A DNA stretch of 29,660 bases from IMG/VR virus record IMGVR_UViG_3300031227_000276, positions 1 to 29,660 of that record. One strand, given 5' to 3'. The notes under the pieces are model-generated. The model was not told the DNA's origin. It saw nothing but the letters and a program-made list of their open reading frames with translations, and did no database searches. Numbering within the stretch: the first letter of the stretch is position 1; each line of letters starts with the position of its first letter. The translations under genes were made by a program, and so were the position numbers. Below are positions 1,384 through 21,201 of this stretch, piece by piece. The stretch comes from a virus.

Positions 1384-1396
1384 TTGACTCCTTGTT

Positions 1397-1603
1397 TTAT
1401 CTGTCGTCATACAAACATGCTATCTCTAAGAATTGCTGTAATGACATACACCTCGGCACTTCCAACGTCCCGAACCGTTCAGAGAACATCACTGAATTTG
1501 GTTGGGCGGGATTATCATTTGTATCATAATTATCAAGACCGCAATCCTTGCGATGAACAATAAACGTAGATCGTCGCCGTTTTTTTGGTCTTTTGCTTTT
1601 CAT
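1397..1603 (-). CDS. Small basic hypothetical protein
   Basis: A 68-residue protein with a strongly basic start (MKSKRPKKRRRS) that could bind nucleic acid. It then has a neutral middle and an acidic end (LYDDR). The ATG at 1603 overlaps the TGA that ends the upstream membrane-protein reading frame (ATGA, 1603-1600). This decides the start over the longer ORF opening at 1669, which would run out of frame across the upstream gene. No family is recognised. Confidence 0.6.
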   Translation of the reverse strand: MKSKRPKKRRRSTFIVHRKDCGLDNYDTNDNPAQPNSVMFSERFGTLEVPRCMSLQQFLEIACLYDDR

Positions 1604-1880: not shown

Positions 1881-2128
1881 CTATTCCTTCCCCGCGCCGG
1901 CCACGGGTTTATCCGGCCCAACATGCCAGTGTGCTGTTCCCGGATCGTCGCATCCGCATATATCATCTGCGGCAATGTCACGTCGGTAACCTGGTTTGCA
2001 CCGAAGCAAATCACAACATTCATAACCAGGTATCAGATCATCAAGCAACCGCATGGCTCTTGGGTACTATACAGCCCGTCATAGCCGTTCTTCTTGAGAT
2101 AATCCGATACTATGTCTTTAACGTTCAT
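1881..2128 (-). pseudogene. Frameshifted Cys-rich conserved phage protein
   Basis: The ATG at 2128 has GGAGG five bases upstream and overlaps the TGA of the preceding gene (ATGA). The frame reads MNVKDIVSDYLKKNGYDGLY and on to PCGC before stopping at 2033. From about 2042 the -1 frame continues naturally as DDLIPGYECCDLLRCKPGY, then CGCDDPGTAHWHVGPDKP, and ends in TAG at 1881. The joined protein, about 80 residues and Cys-rich with a terminal HWHVGPDK, matches a well-known type of small phage protein. One base appears to be missing after TGC TTG. No slippery heptamer is evident, so this is a frameshift mutation or a sequence error rather than clear programmed frameshifting. Confidence 0.65.
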
Positions 2129-2625
2129 GTTGTCCTCCACGGGTTTGATATTACTTCCCTGATTCTGTTTGCCTGCCATTTGCTCTCGGCTGATGTGTCA
2201 TCGGCGGCATCGGCGGCATTGGCGGCGGCATACGCGGCATGAGCGGCATGAGCGGCATGAGCGGCATGAGCGGCATGAGCGGCATCGGCGGCATACGCGG
2301 CATCGGCGGCATACGCGGCACGCGCGGCGTCATACGCGGTATGGCGAGAATTAGAACTGTTTTTTGCCGCCTCGATAGCTTTGCATGGCCTATCGTCATT
2401 AGGATATCTGCGCTCGAAGATTGGCAATACGCGCTCAGCAAACTCAATAGCTAACAGGCGCTCCTGCTCCAGCTCGATCTTGTTGGCTTTATCCAGCATC
2501 CATATCAGCCAATCTCCGCGCTTGCAGTTATCGTAGACGTCAGCCAGTGTCGCGTATTGCTTGGCCCACTTCGCCCCATCGTCACAAGCTCTGTGTTTTA
2601 TACAGAATTGTTCAACTCCGTTCAT
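2125..2625 (-). CDS. Imm-5-like protein with alanine-rich repeat tail
   Basis: A 166-residue protein starting MNGVEQFCIKHRACDDGAKW. The N-terminal half has the pattern C-x-G-A-x-WA, then D-x-C-x-RGDWLIWML, then AERVLPIFERRYPNDDRPCKAIEAA. I associate this with Imm-5-like putative immunity-protein domains often found in phages. The C-terminal third is low complexity, built from AAH, AAY and AAD triplets encoded by a 9-base tandem repeat. AGGAGG lies before the ATG at 2625, so the much longer ORF opening at 2775 is not used. The stop overlaps the next ATG. The tail probably forms an extended helix; the function is unknown. Confidence 0.65.
   Translation of the reverse strand: MNGVEQFCIKHRACDDGAKWAKQYATLADVYDNCKRGDWLIWMLDKANKIELEQERLLAIEFAERVLPIFERRYPNDDRPCKAIEAAKNSSNSRHTAYDAARAAYAADAAYAADAAHAAHAAHAAHAAHAAYAAANAADAADDTSAESKWQANRIREVISNPWRTT
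2202..2335. repeat. 9-bp tandem repeat coding for Ala-rich tail
   Basis: Tandem 9-base units of the form NNNCGGCAT on the plus strand. Five copies of GAGCGGCAT in 2241-2285 are perfect, flanked by degenerate copies on both sides. On the coding (minus) strand each unit reads Ala-Ala-His, Ala-Ala-Tyr or Ala-Ala-Asp. The unit length is a multiple of three, so changes in copy number keep the gene in frame. Confidence 0.9.
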
Positions 2626-2641
2626 GTTTTTCCTCCTGTTG

Positions 2642-2920
2642 TTATGTTTGCGCGGGTGATTCATGGTTAATCGGCTTGCCATAGATTTCTTCCATTGAGA
2701 GGGTCTGTTGTCCTGGATTAAGCGTCTGATGCAGTATTTTACACAGCATCTCAAGATTCGACACCTTCTGACCATCGGCTACATCCGCCAACACCTTGTC
2801 CAGAAATGGCGGCAGCACATAGCCCCGGATGCTGTTAAACTTGATTCGATGCTCTTTGCAACAGAACTTCTGCCAATCCCGCGTCGGCTTAAACTCGACA
2901 TTGCACCACGGACACTTCAT
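2642..2920 (-). CDS. Zinc-finger phage protein
   Basis: A 92-residue protein beginning MKCPWCNVEF, followed by RDWQKFCCKEHRIKF. This C-x2-C...C-C-x2-H arrangement is a classic small zinc finger that often opens phage accessory proteins. The remainder is helical and acidic (SNLEMLCKILHQTL). An AAGGGGG site lies 8 bases before the ATG at 2920, which is preferred over the ATG at 2953, where the ribosome site would be almost touching the start. It lies between the MNKAQLW gene and the Ala-rich gene in the leftward operon. The partner and role are unknown. Confidence 0.65.
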   Translation of the reverse strand: MKCPWCNVEFKPTRDWQKFCCKEHRIKFNSIRGYVLPPFLDKVLADVADGQKVSNLEMLCKILHQTLNPGQQTLSMEEIYGKPINHESPAQT

Positions 2921-6919: not shown

Positions 6920-7398
6920 CTTGCCCTCCCTGTTGTTGTTGGTTCTGGTTTCAGTTTACTGATACAGTCCGCCAGTCGTTCCTGCATTGTCAAGCCGTCT
7001 TTGTAGCATGATACCACCTCCCACGTACCCTCCCAAAGCGGTCCGTTGCTAACCTCAATCATCAACCCGCCGTGGTGCTCATGCAGCGCGACATCATCAT
7101 ACTCACCCCACAGCTTCTCAATCATTTCCTGAATGGTCATCTTGTCCTCTTTTTTATACTTATCGTTTATGAACTCATATACTTTTTTCCCACACAACTT
7201 TATCATAATGTCAAACATTGCCAGCACAGCTTCCGGGCTTAGGCGTATATGTTCTCCATGAATAGTCTTATCTGAACGCAACCGGGTGAAATGAAAAACC
7301 AATGTTCCATCGTGCATTAACCCGCCGCGCACCCGGCGATTATGCAACTTCGCTCTAAATGCTTTTATCGGTTTTGTGGCTCGCATTGCATTACTCAT
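6916..7398 (-). CDS. Two-part hypothetical early protein
   Basis: A 160-residue protein. The first half (1-87) is basic then helical, with LHNRRVRGGLMHDGTLVFHF and LSPEAVLAMFDIMIKL. The second half begins MTIQEMIEKLWGEYDDVALHE and ends with DGLTMQERLADCISKLK. Each half looks like a separate small phage protein. A GAGGACAAG lies just before the internal ATG at codon 88, so an internal start that makes the second half alone is possible. GAGGAGGAAAAAAT precedes the first ATG. The gene overlaps both neighbours by ATGA. The function is unknown. Confidence 0.6.
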   Translation of the reverse strand: MSNAMRATKPIKAFRAKLHNRRVRGGLMHDGTLVFHFTRLRSDKTIHGEHIRLSPEAVLAMFDIMIKLCGKKVYEFINDKYKKEDKMTIQEMIEKLWGEYDDVALHEHHGGLMIEVSNGPLWEGTWEVVSCYKDGLTMQERLADCISKLKPEPTTTGRAR

Positions 7399-8816: not shown

Positions 8817-9260
8817 TTAAATACAGTTCCCTGTTTCCCGCATGCTGGTATGGTTTCCGTTGCCGATGATTACATGATCCAGGAGCTTTATGCCGATGAT
8901 TTCGCCGGCAGACTTGATCTGATGCGTAGTCAATATATCGGCTTCACTCGGGATGATGTTGCCGCTTGGGTGGTTATGAATGAGGATAATGGCTTGCGCC
9001 GCGGCCACGATTGCGGGCCGGAAGACTTCGCGCGGGTGGACGAGGCTGCTATCGTTCAGGCCCAGCGTGACAAGATTATAGCCTTTGATGTGATTCCTTG
9101 CCGATAATAGCAACACGATCACCATTTCCTTCTCGGGATCGTACCAGGCCGCCTTTGTGATTTCAGAATCCCAGAACGCGCGGACTTCCGCCGGGGTTGT
9201 GACGTGATACTCCGGGCCAGTTTCGCGCACTGTCATAATTTTAATCTCGCTGCATTTCAT
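8817..9260 (-). CDS. radC: RadC-like JAB-domain protein
   Basis: A 147-residue protein of the RadC/JAB (MPN) fold. HNHPSGNIIPSEADI at about 95-109 gives the metal site H-x-HPSG...P-S-x-x-D, and E45 in DPEKEMVIVLLLSARN fills the upstream acidic position. It is shorter than bacterial RadC (about 220 residues) because the N-terminal helix-hairpin-helix part is absent, as is common in phage and mobile-element versions. The catalytic role is undetermined; family members sit among repair and antirestriction genes. The start at 9260 follows the AATAACAACAACAACATAGG leader. The ORF opens earlier, at 9371, but with no ribosome site. Confidence 0.88.
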   Translation of the reverse strand: MKCSEIKIMTVRETGPEYHVTTPAEVRAFWDSEITKAAWYDPEKEMVIVLLLSARNHIKGYNLVTLGLNDSSLVHPREVFRPAIVAAAQAIILIHNHPSGNIIPSEADILTTHQIKSAGEIIGIKLLDHVIIGNGNHTSMRETGNCI

Positions 9261-9285
9261 CTTGTGTTTTCCTATGTTGTTGTTG

Positions 9286-9489
9286 TTATTTGAGAATTGC
9301 TCCGCCATCCGGCATTGCATCTGCCATGCTTGGCCGTGCTCCGATACGATCGCCGCATGTGCAGCCATCAATTCCGCACAGCTTATTTTGCAATCGCCGC
9401 ACCTGGCTGGGTGTCAAATAGCCATCCTCATCCACGTATACGCGCGCGATCGTGTTATGAAACTCATTGGTTATTGTGATCTTTTTCAT
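9286..9489 (-). CDS. Conserved small phage protein
   Basis: A 67-residue protein with MKKITITNEFHNTIARVYVD, then GYLTPSQVRRLQNKLCGIDG and CTCGDRIG. The N-terminal hairpin, the LTPSQVRR helix and the C-G-x2-G-C-x-C-G metal-binding-like motif define a recurrent small phage protein of unknown function. Its ribosome site, AGGAGG, lies 6 bases from the ATG and immediately downstream of the hammerhead ribozyme. Self-cleavage would give this mRNA a new 5' end 28 bases before its ATG. Confidence 0.75.
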   Translation of the reverse strand: MKKITITNEFHNTIARVYVDEDGYLTPSQVRRLQNKLCGIDGCTCGDRIGARPSMADAMPDGGAILK

Positions 9490-9511
9490 TTCATCCCTCC
9501 TATTATGTTGT

Positions 9512-9567
9512 TACCTCGACCCCAGTTTAACCGGGGTTTCGTCCCGCAGGACTCGTCAGAAGGTCAA
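9512..9567 (-). ncRNA. Type I hammerhead ribozyme
   Basis: Read on the minus strand, the conserved core CUGANGA is at 9559-9553 (CTGACGA). Stem II is GUCC/GGAC (9552-9549 with 9544-9541), capped by UGCG and starting with the required G10.1-C11.1 pair. GAA is at 9540-9538. Stem III is ACCCC/GGGGU (9537-9533 with 9523-9519), starting with A15.1-U16.1 and extendable by three pairs. C17 is at 9518, giving the preferred GUC cleavage triplet. Stem I is ACCUU/GAGGU (9564-9560 with 9517-9513), possibly extended past a bulged G. Cleavage would fall between 9518 and 9517. The open end at stem I makes it type I. The ribozyme lies between two early genes, and the upstream stop codon is inside the core. 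Confidence 0.9.
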
Positions 9568-9822
9568 TGCTTTTTCCGCGTTCTCCTCCCACCATTTGAT
9601 TACGTCCTCTTCTCCAAGTCCTTCAATAGTATCGGAAAACCGAGGTGAATCCGGATTTTCCAGAAGAAACGCAGTTTGATTCCCGATCATGGACAATTTC
9701 CAACCTAAGTATTGTCCATTATTTTTCTGATGTAGTTCCCGGACTTCCCCGGTCCCGTAAAACTCCATGTTATCGTTTGATAAATCAATCCCGTTTTTCT
9801 CGCAATATTCTTTCAAATTCAT
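9556..9822 (-). CDS. Hypothetical early protein upstream of ribozyme
   Basis: An 88-residue acidic protein, MNLKEYCEKNGIDLSNDNME at its start. It has a W-rich middle (YLGWKLSMIGNQTAFLLE) and ends EEDVIKWWEENAEKALTF. GGAGG lies 8 bases before the ATG, after a hairpin leader (9841-9857). The last codons encode the 5' strand of ribozyme stem I, and the TGA stop forms part of the CUGANGA core. No family is recognised. Confidence 0.65.
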   Translation of the reverse strand: MNLKEYCEKNGIDLSNDNMEFYGTGEVRELHQKNNGQYLGWKLSMIGNQTAFLLENPDSPRFSDTIEGLGEEDVIKWWEENAEKALTF

Positions 9823-9840
9823 CTTCCGTTCCTCCCTTGT

Positions 9841-9857
9841 GCCCGGTTCCGCCGGGC
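9841..9857 (-). other. RBS-adjacent hairpin, copy A
   Basis: On the minus strand, GCCCGG/CCGGGC forms a 6-bp stem with loop CGGAA, placed just before the AAGGGAGG ribosome site of the 9822 gene. The flanks ATAACAA...ACCGCG upstream and CA(A)AAGGGAGG downstream match copy B at 11173-11189. Stem bases differ between the copies but pairing is kept, which supports an RNA structure. Confidence 0.55.
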
Positions 9858-9868
9858 GCGGTCTGTTG

Positions 9869-11685: not shown

Positions 11686-11905
11686 CTGCACATCATACGC
11701 AACTCAACAATCTTCAATCTATTTTCACCACGCACAAAACACCCCGAAAACCATACCATTATTGCAAATGTGAGAAACCACTCTCGCATTTATGATACGA
11801 TTTGACAGGCAATCTACCAGCATAACCAGCCCATATCAGCCATAAGAGCAAGCATGCCAACGCATAAAGCACTCACAACCCGACCAGCACACGCAGCACA
11901 CAATA

Positions 11906-11943
11906 GCAATATCGTTATACTTTGGCAATATCGTTATACTTTG
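11906..11943. repeat. Two tandem 19-bp repeats
   Basis: The unit GCAATATCGTTATACTTTG occurs twice back to back (11906-11924 and 11925-11943). It contains TATCGTTATA, a near-dyad. Abutting identical units in a divergent promoter region suggest operator sites for a dimeric regulator, or small iterons. Confidence 0.8.
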
Positions 11944-12284
11944 GTTTGTGACTTGGCCATGTTCACATTCACGTTAACTCTCACAACACCCCTGCCTATG
12001 CAAGCCTGTTTTGTGTCCATATTACCATGTTTTGACCGCTCAAACCGTGCCTTGTCATGCGTCCAGTTGCGTAATGCACACACGCGCAACGCCTTGCACA
12101 TACTGGCAAAGGTAACATAAGTTTTATTATACGACGAGCACCCGTATCCTTTTCATACCCCGCACCCTCCCCCCTCCACCCCTCGTTGACGCACGTTAAT
12201 ATATGTCTCACCAAGTGGGGTTAATTTAGGGTATATGGTAAGGCTATTAAGGATGGATGTAGTAGGACTGTATTTAGACAGAGA

Positions 12285-12676
12285 AAGCCCACCCTAATTT
12301 AGGGTGGGCTTGCCTCTGGAAGCGATGGCAAGGGGCTTATGCCCATGAGCTTCACCGGCCTCTGTTATCCATTGCTGCCGTAGTCTACTAACGTGGACTA
12401 AGCTCATCCGTCACAGTGGTTATTAGACCTTCTGTGAACTACGGGTGCTTGTCGCCTTACGGCATTGACGAGCATCCAGCCGGAGAGGTTGCTTACGATG
12501 TTGGGCTATAACGTCCGACGGTTGGTGTATGAAATAGAAGCTCCTACCGTCCACCTTATCTCCTTATCCGGCGCAGAGGTGCGGCTGCACATGCAGTTGC
12601 AGATACGCACATTCACCTACAGGGTCGCTTTATGCGGTGATCCTGTGGCTACACGCCTATGGAACCATTCCATAGG
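12285..12676 (+). ncRNA. Large structured RNA, unknown class
   Basis: Nine successive hairpins occupy this stretch. They lie at 12285-12311 (13-bp stem), 12319-12353, 12381-12400 (8 bp, loop UAAC), 12408-12444, 12443-12477 (11 bp with an inner GCC/GGC), 12476-12525 (CCAGCC/GGTTGG enclosing GATGTT/AACGTC), 12579-12610, 12620-12645 (7 bp) and 12656-12676 (9-bp perfect, CCA loop). Several stems contain G-U pairs when read on the plus strand; on the minus strand these would be A-C mismatches, so the RNA is rightward. No credible ORF or tRNA, tmRNA, RNase P or group I/II core was found. Ends are approximate; it could be a long leader, a stable ncRNA or a packaging-related RNA. Confidence 0.65.
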
Positions 12677-12746
12677 ATTTGAGATAGGTATAACACGAGT
12701 TGAGAAACATGTCAAGTATTTATTTTAATTTTGTTCATTTATTTTG

Positions 12747-12775
12747 TTGACATGATTTATATGATGGTGTAATGG
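12747..12775 (+). promoter_or_regulatory. Candidate rightward promoter
   Basis: A perfect -35 hexamer TTGACA (12747-12752) has a very AT-rich tract upstream (about 12713-12745), like an UP element. Seventeen bases on is TAATGG, a weak -10. It lies 30 bases before the first rightward start codon. The same spacing recurs at 18841. Confidence 0.45.
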
Positions 12776-12804
12776 TATAAAAGTTAGAAGAGGAGAGATA
12801 TAGT

Positions 12805-20250: not shown

Positions 20251-20762
20251 CAAGGAGAATCAATTATGTCATTTACAGCAGTAAATCCGAAGGTTGTCAA
20301 TTTCGGTGGCAATCGGGTGGGTTTAGAACAGGATACGCTGCCTATTGCCGATTCTCAGACATGGAAAGTAGGAGAGTTCGGTATATTCAGCGGCGGTGAA
20401 TTAACCGTTGCAGGAAGTGGAGCTATCCCCACGCATATATTCCGAAACACGCGCACAGTAGCTGAGAATAGCACTGAAGTTACCGTTGACAGGCTGGAAG
20501 TCGGAACGCAGTTGGAAATGTATTGTTCAGCGGCAGTTGGCGTAGCCAATCTCGCGATCAGTTATGACCTTGTTGTTGCAGCTAACAAGCATGCGGTCAA
20601 TCTGAGCGCCACGGCTGACGCGGAGTTCAAAGTCGTGCGGCTTGCCGCAGATTATGAGCCTGAACGCAACGCCACGGCTGACAATCCAGGCAAGTGCATA
20701 GTTGAGATTCAAAAGTTGGTATAACAAGGAGAATCAATTATGTCATTTACAGCAGTAAATCC
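20247..20762 (+). repeat. Tandem gene duplication with identical leaders
   Basis: A 42-base segment covering stop, ribosome site, ATG and the first eight codons is identical at 20247-20288 and 20721-20762. The offset is 474 bases, the length of one gene unit. The rest of the two genes has diverged at DNA level although the proteins remain alike. Confidence 0.85.
20266..20724 (+). CDS. Capsid-region paralogue 1, possible decoration protein
   Basis: A 152-residue, beta-rich protein, MSFTAVNPKVVNFGGNRVGL at its start. TWKVGEFGIFSGGELTV, VDRLEVGTQLEMYCSAAVG and a closing PGKCIVEIQKLV follow. There are few charged helices and many Gly/Val/Thr strands, consistent with a head decoration or minor capsid protein, and it lies just before the major capsid gene. 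It is a tandem paralogue of the next gene. AAGGAGAATCAATT precedes the ATG. The role is inferred from position and fold character only. Confidence 0.65.
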   Translation: MSFTAVNPKVVNFGGNRVGLEQDTLPIADSQTWKVGEFGIFSGGELTVAGSGAIPTHIFRNTRTVAENSTEVTVDRLEVGTQLEMYCSAAVGVANLAISYDLVVAANKHAVNLSATADAEFKVVRLAADYEPERNATADNPGKCIVEIQKLV

Positions 20763-21201
20763 AAAAGTGGTTAGCTTCGGTAGAAACCGAGTTGGCCTTG
20801 AACGGGATACATTGCCTATTGCTGCTTCGCAAACGTGGAAAGTCGGAGAGTTCGGAATCTTTTCAGGTGGCACACTCAGCGTGTGTGCGTCTACAGAGAT
20901 TCCCACTCATATATTCAGGACGACCCGTGACACGAAAGTTGATGATACGAATGTGGAAGTTGACCGGCTGGCTAAAGGAGTTCAACTTGAGATGTATTGT
21001 ACGGGTGCTGTAGGCATTGCCAATGTAGGCTTGACCTATGACCTTGATGTAAGCACCGCACATACACATATTGTTGATCTCGCTGCCAGCGATGACGATG
21101 TATTCAAAGTCGTCAGGTTAGCGGCTACATACGAACCAGAGAGAAACGCGACAGCAGATGATCCAGGCAAATGTATCGTTGAGATAATGAAAATGGTTTA
21201 A
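20740..21201 (+). CDS. Capsid-region paralogue 2, possible decoration protein
   Basis: A 153-residue protein closely similar to the preceding one: the same MSFTAVNPKVV start, DTLPIAASQTWKVGEFGIFS, and a shared YEPERNATAD-x-PGKCIVEI end. It differs mainly in the central strands (TLSVCAST, STAHTHIVDLAASDDD). Two diverged copies side by side may form a hetero-oligomer or occupy different symmetry positions on the head. The ribosome site is identical to that of copy 1. Confidence 0.65.
   Translation: MSFTAVNPKVVSFGRNRVGLERDTLPIAASQTWKVGEFGIFSGGTLSVCASTEIPTHIFRTTRDTKVDDTNVEVDRLAKGVQLEMYCTGAVGIANVGLTYDLDVSTAHTHIVDLAASDDDVFKVVRLAATYEPERNATADDPGKCIVEIMKMV

Follow-up and report, generated by a model that had tools for sequence, protein, structure and literature searches.

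Clusters of hammerhead ribozymes between the genes of prophages, some of them next to ardA, were described by Perreault et al. in 2011 (PMC3088659), who proposed that they cut long phage transcripts into shorter mRNAs; similar clustered prophage hammerheads cleave in vitro, and the A. tumefaciens set does so also in E. coli. Bacterial hammerheads are enriched near certain genes, notably those of Mu-like phages, for reasons that are unknown (PMC10085705). The window analysed here is the whole 29,660-nt stretch of an IMG/VR virus record (IMGVR_UViG_3300031227_000276), and its minus strand carries a complete hammerhead motif at a boundary between two leftward genes. Our reading, to which we assign a probability of about 0.8, is that this is a genuine type I hammerhead in a leftward polycistronic transcript of a tailed phage, predicted to cut itself and thereby to uncouple the gene blocks on its two sides. 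The transcript is probably of the early class.

The genes neighbouring the ribozyme all run leftward. Farther upstream of the 88-aa ORF that precedes it lies an ArdC-N-like gene (PF08401), and farther downstream of the RadC-like gene that follows it lie YqaJ and RecT recombination genes. Read directly, the minus-strand RNA from 9564 to 9513 is ACCUU CUGACGA GUCC UGCG GGAC GAA ACCCCGGU UAA ACUGGGGU C GAGGU, and the locus is laid out as follows, in the direction of transcription.

9556-9822, minus strand: upstream ORF of 88 aa, of no known family, whose final codons supply the 5' strand of stem I
9513-9564, minus strand: type I hammerhead ribozyme, from sequence and covariance model R1 (44.2 bits, E 6e-11; match with flanks, 9506-9569)
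9564-9560, minus strand: 5' strand of stem I, ACCUU (sequence)
9559-9553, minus strand: CUGACGA core box, containing the UGA (9558-9556) that is the upstream ORF's stop codon
9541-9552, minus strand: stem II, GUCC (9552-9549) with GGAC (9544-9541) (sequence)
9548-9545, minus strand: loop II, UGCG, giving C(UGCG)G, a UNCG-type tetraloop (sequence)
9540-9538, minus strand: GAA (sequence)
9537-9519, minus strand: stem III, ACCCCGGU (9537-9530) and ACUGGGGU (9526-9519) round the loop UAA (9529-9527), with A15.1-U16.1 closing
9518, minus strand: C17, the last base of GUC (9520-9518)
between 9518 and 9517, minus strand: predicted cleavage site, after C17 and before G1.1, from hammerhead chemistry and the position of GUC
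9517-9513, minus strand: 3' strand of stem I, GAGGU (sequence)
9286-9489, minus strand: downstream ORF of 67 aa, of no known family, with ATG at 9489 and a good ribosome-binding site (RBS), GGAGG at 9500-9496
8817-9371, minus strand: RadC-like JAB domain gene, second after the cut (Pfam PF04002, E 6e-36)

The RadC-like ORF as listed starts at TTG, and a start at 9260 would avoid its overlap with the 67-aa ORF. Within the ribozyme, stems I, II and III comprise 5, 4 and 8 pairs, respectively. The stem I pair adjoining the core (2.1-1.1) is a U-G wobble, the sixth of the eight stem III pairs is G-U, and UUG at 9567-9565 could lengthen stem I by pairing with CAA at 9510-9508, leaving an AA bulge between. 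Direct reading finds the CUGANGA...GAA core together with G10.1-C11.1 and A15.1-U16.1, and the base at position 17 after U16.1 is H (not G), supplied by the GUC triplet. Three stems surround this core in the sequence, in the minimum free energy (MFE) fold of the isolated RNA and in the covariance model alignment, with stem I open and loops closing stems II and III, which is the type I arrangement. The invariant elements, spacing, stems and coordinates reported in a first-pass annotation are borne out letter for letter on the minus strand, and the cut that it placed between 9518 and 9517, 28 bases before the ATG, falls where the anatomy predicts one.

An arrangement of this kind might be a chance resemblance, or a plain pair of intergenic hairpins without ribozyme ancestry. 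The isolated 76-mer has exactly the hammerhead structure as its MFE fold (-21.6 kcal/mol), with a z-score that is weak, only -1.8, and the latter value would suit such a reading, as would the absence of an Rfam match at gathering score. The relaxed core pattern is uninformative by itself, giving 7 matches in the window against 4.7 expected. The complete motif, in contrast, occurred 0 times in 1.99 Gb of Markov sequence having the dinucleotide composition of the window, i.e., fewer than about 1e-4 per window, and the independent covariance model described below scores the site at 44.2 bits. These chance tests and the covariance model have effectively refuted a fortuitous origin, which we regard as extremely improbable.

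The silence of Rfam has a simple explanation. Neither the Rfam models at gathering score nor the whole-window E-value scans gave a match in the window. With the region scanned alone, RAGATH-1-hammerhead (RF03152) reached 27.2 bits where its gathering score is 56.3, and Hammerhead_1 (RF00163) reached 17.8 bits where 34 is needed, so that the Rfam search by which the first-pass annotation expected its proposal to stand or fall returns sub-threshold scores only; phage type I hammerheads are a poor fit to the Rfam models. In 13 loci, R1 detects 35 hammerheads among the matches listed and Rfam at gathering score detects 1. Since 34 of 35 comparable hammerheads are missed, silence on the window is to be expected and is no refutation, and we rejected it as a sign of absence because model fit accounts for it. 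Current Rfam thresholds, on these listed matches, overlook most phage type I hammerheads.

R1 was built from 24 other phage hammerheads with the window left out. It finds one site in the window, at 44.2 bits and E ~6e-11 (a rough calibration), and this score falls inside the range of the relatives' own scores. A significant score from a model that does not contain the window places the site among the phage type I hammerheads. No second hammerhead was found in the window, the next covariance model score being 8.6 bits with filters off. The hammerhead identity proposed in the first-pass annotation is thus supported by an independent model and by relatives that occupy similar gene-boundary positions.

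These relatives were obtained by scanning IMG/VR with CTGANGAGTCCNNNNGGACGAAAC, which specifies one stem II sequence and leaves stems I and III free, and the frequencies given for them are approximate, as they describe the matches listed for that single stem II sequence. At least 107 distinct sites in IMG/VR have the same core and stem II, and in 61 of the 107 listed sites stem III, H17 and stem I are present as well, compared with 1.9 expected from flank shuffles. In the 24 relatives, 99.2% of cells are paired, two-sided changes occur in 11 of 15 pairs, and covariation is 0.67 vs 0.14 in shuffles (0 of 500 shuffles as good); these relatives were chosen for complete stems, which tilts the covariation count towards structure, and the flank-shuffle test is free of that bias. 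Synteny searches by way of the flanking ORFs, RadC and the terminase gave no useful relatives in either IMG/VR or INPHARED, and no close relative of the window turned up in them.

The gene-boundary position is likewise typical. The 110 distinct, complete type I hammerheads listed from IMG/VR lie mostly at sense gene boundaries, and in 56 of the 110 an RBS-led start follows within 60 nt of the cut, compared with 6 on the antisense control, the gene calls in these context statistics being heuristic (an open frame plus an RBS-like match). The position of a hammerhead cut follows from established hammerhead chemistry. Once the polymerase passes about 9513, the RNA would fold and cut itself between 9518 and 9517 while transcription continues. 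The upstream message would then end just past its stop codon, with the ribozyme in its folded form and a terminal 2',3'-cyclic phosphate, and the downstream message, encoding the 67-aa ORF, the RadC-like protein and onwards, would have a 5'-hydroxyl at its start, followed by a 28-nt leader containing the RBS. Ends with a 5'-hydroxyl are poor substrates for decay that depends on a 5'-monophosphate. The likely purpose would be to uncouple the stability, and hence the expression, of the two flanking gene blocks, whose relative stability would change. The locus thereby adds a clean case of a predicted ribozyme-cut phage mRNA beside a RadC-like gene.

How fast the ribozyme cuts may depend on loop II. 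In fast extended hammerheads, the tertiary contact between loop II and stem I usually needs an A in loop II. Among the matches listed, 68 flank-clustered cases have a 4-nt loop, with A at loop position 3 in 58 and UNCG in 3; the loop of the window, UGCG, has no A, and the usual position-3 A is missing. At low Mg2+, contacts between loop II and stem I make hammerheads several orders of magnitude more active (Perreault et al., PMC3088659). The usual contact, on which rapid cutting at physiological Mg2+ depends, may be missing here and the ribozyme possibly slow, and the AA bulge and the UUG/CAA extension of stem I could leave room for an alternative contact.

The first-pass annotation had considered a UNCG-like loop on a short stem II to be common. 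In the phage type I group it is rare, being found in 3 of the 110 distinct complete hammerheads listed, that of the window included, and even this fraction overstates its frequency since two of the three, L122 and L123, came from a scan targeted at UNCG. That scan, of IMG/VR for 4-pair stems II closed on UNCG, gave these 2 sites besides the window, both of them complete hammerheads. A UNCG-loop pattern run over 84,980 prokaryote genomes gave 5 matches, which were rejected as chance, none having stems I and III and none being detected by the covariance model. The U-G wobble at 2.1-1.1 occurs only in the window among the 110 listed.

One could accordingly regard the site as a hammerhead of genuine ancestry that has become weak or is in decay, its UNCG loop and U-G pair having cost it the tertiary contact, so that it scarcely cleaves at cellular Mg2+. 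Its singular wobble, its membership in a set of three UNCG loops among the 110 listed, the mere 2 further sites from the IMG/VR scan and a stem I of just 5 pairs vs the usual 6 (among the matches listed) are all consistent with decay. Yet all catalytic core positions are intact, and the variant recurs: both other UNCG-loop hammerheads, those of L122 and L123, are complete and lie at gene boundaries, and in L123 the loop and stem II are identical to those of the window. If formed, the AA bulge and the UUG/CAA extension could also supply another contact. We consider decay unlikely and retain the reading of a self-cutting type I hammerhead.

The upstream ORF overlaps the ribozyme in a specific manner. 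Its UGA stop codon (9558-9556) is U4-G5-A6 of the catalytic core, and the overlap has counterparts elsewhere. Among the matches listed, an upstream gene is recognisable in 62 flank-clustered cases; in 46 of them it ends within or beside the 5' strand of the ribozyme (stop at -12 to +10 relative to the start of the core), and in 11 of the 62 the CUGA core provides its UGA stop codon, as in the window. Because the upstream stop lies in or near the core start, a terminating ribosome would cover the core, and gene packing can explain the overlap. When more of the flanking RNA is included, secondary-structure prediction pairs 9590-9585 with 9563-9558 in a hairpin that comes out about 5 kcal/mol more favourable than stem I. 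It is therefore conceivable that translation gates the ribozyme, with a ribosome ending at the core UGA, or the melting of this competing hairpin by translation, deciding whether cleavage occurs. On a broader version of the same idea, phage hammerheads would routinely overlap the 3' end of the preceding coding sequence, its stop codon falling in the catalytic core or in stem I, and termination would compete with self-cleavage, so that the ribozyme would be a translation-sensing switch and not a constitutive cutter; cleavage would then serve as a readout of translation of the upstream gene.

We think gating rather improbable for the window, and hold the broader version to be equally doubtful. 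The stop overlap in the window and among the 62 listed cases, and the predicted hairpin, are what such a switch would call for, but tight phage gene packing and the presence of UGA within CUGA suffice to produce the overlap, and a low stem I probability in context is widespread among the relatives. Most relatives, folded in their own contexts, have a low stem I probability (median 0.08), and the competing hairpin therefore does not discriminate. The misfold in context was for this reason rejected both as a sign of inactivity and as a sign of a switch, the relatives behaving alike. Sequestration of the RBS by the stem I strand, another candidate switch, is predicted only without the upstream RNA and so is not favoured. 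A hammerhead that cuts the transcript as it is made continues to be our preferred reading.

Several other elements of the window may be recorded. One gene boundary earlier in this operon, the leader of the 88-aa ORF contains a GCCCGG-CGGAA-CCGGGC hairpin (9837-9861, minus strand), located a few bases upstream of the RBS of that ORF. Just past the RBS of the 67-aa ORF, ATGAAATGA (9494-9486, minus strand) forms a two-codon ORF (ATG AAA TGA) that overlaps the ATG of that ORF. A 216-aa ORF at 2125-2775 (minus strand) has an Ala/His tandem repeat (AAHAAHAAHAA...). On the plus strand, the adjacent and clearly paralogous ORFs at 20266-20724 and 20740-21201, of 152 and 153 aa, both begin MSFTAVNPKVV and adjoin a probable major head protein gene. 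Between the leftward and rightward operons, the sign of the GC skew switches in a gene-poor stretch at ~11800-12800, a probable control region.

Compared with described families, RAGATH-1-hammerhead (RF03152) is the best Rfam match, its core and stem III aligning over model positions 26-77 in a similar phage gene context, whereas its first 25 model positions are unmatched and its stem II loop and lengths are unlike those of the window. Hammerhead_1 (RF00163) has a core and a stem II (GUCC/GGAC) identical to those of the window, but the stem I and stem III pairs of the window fit it poorly. The hammerhead of L123 (IMGVR_UViG_2721755317_000002, 7317-7377) shares 24 identical nucleotides, CTGACGAGTCCTGCGGGACGAAAC, covering the core, stem II, the UGCG loop and GAAAC, and its cut likewise comes shortly before an RBS; it differs in its stem III sequence, in a stem I of 4 pairs and in flanking genes that are unrelated, with no homology between the downstream ORFs of the two. 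The window's contig has a single hammerhead copy, whereas many phage and prophage relatives have several. Loci L068, L057, L096, L103 and L098 each have 4-6 type I hammerheads per 8-14 kb of a single phage contig, on one strand per locus. In another phage contig, L045, a Twister-P5 ribozyme (1390-1444, minus strand, 47.1 bits) lies less than 1 kb from a same-strand hammerhead (524-591), forming a mixed ribozyme cluster.

Phage type I hammerheads between genes are already known, and that of the window is a further example. It has the same core, the same type I topology and the same place on the coding strand between phage genes as the phage and prophage hammerheads described earlier (PMC3088659), and the same kind of neighbours, anti-restriction and early genes. 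It differs from them by its UNCG loop II and the U-G wobble at 2.1-1.1, and this variant, the size of the Rfam blind spot and the statistics of stop-codon overlap are mildly new.
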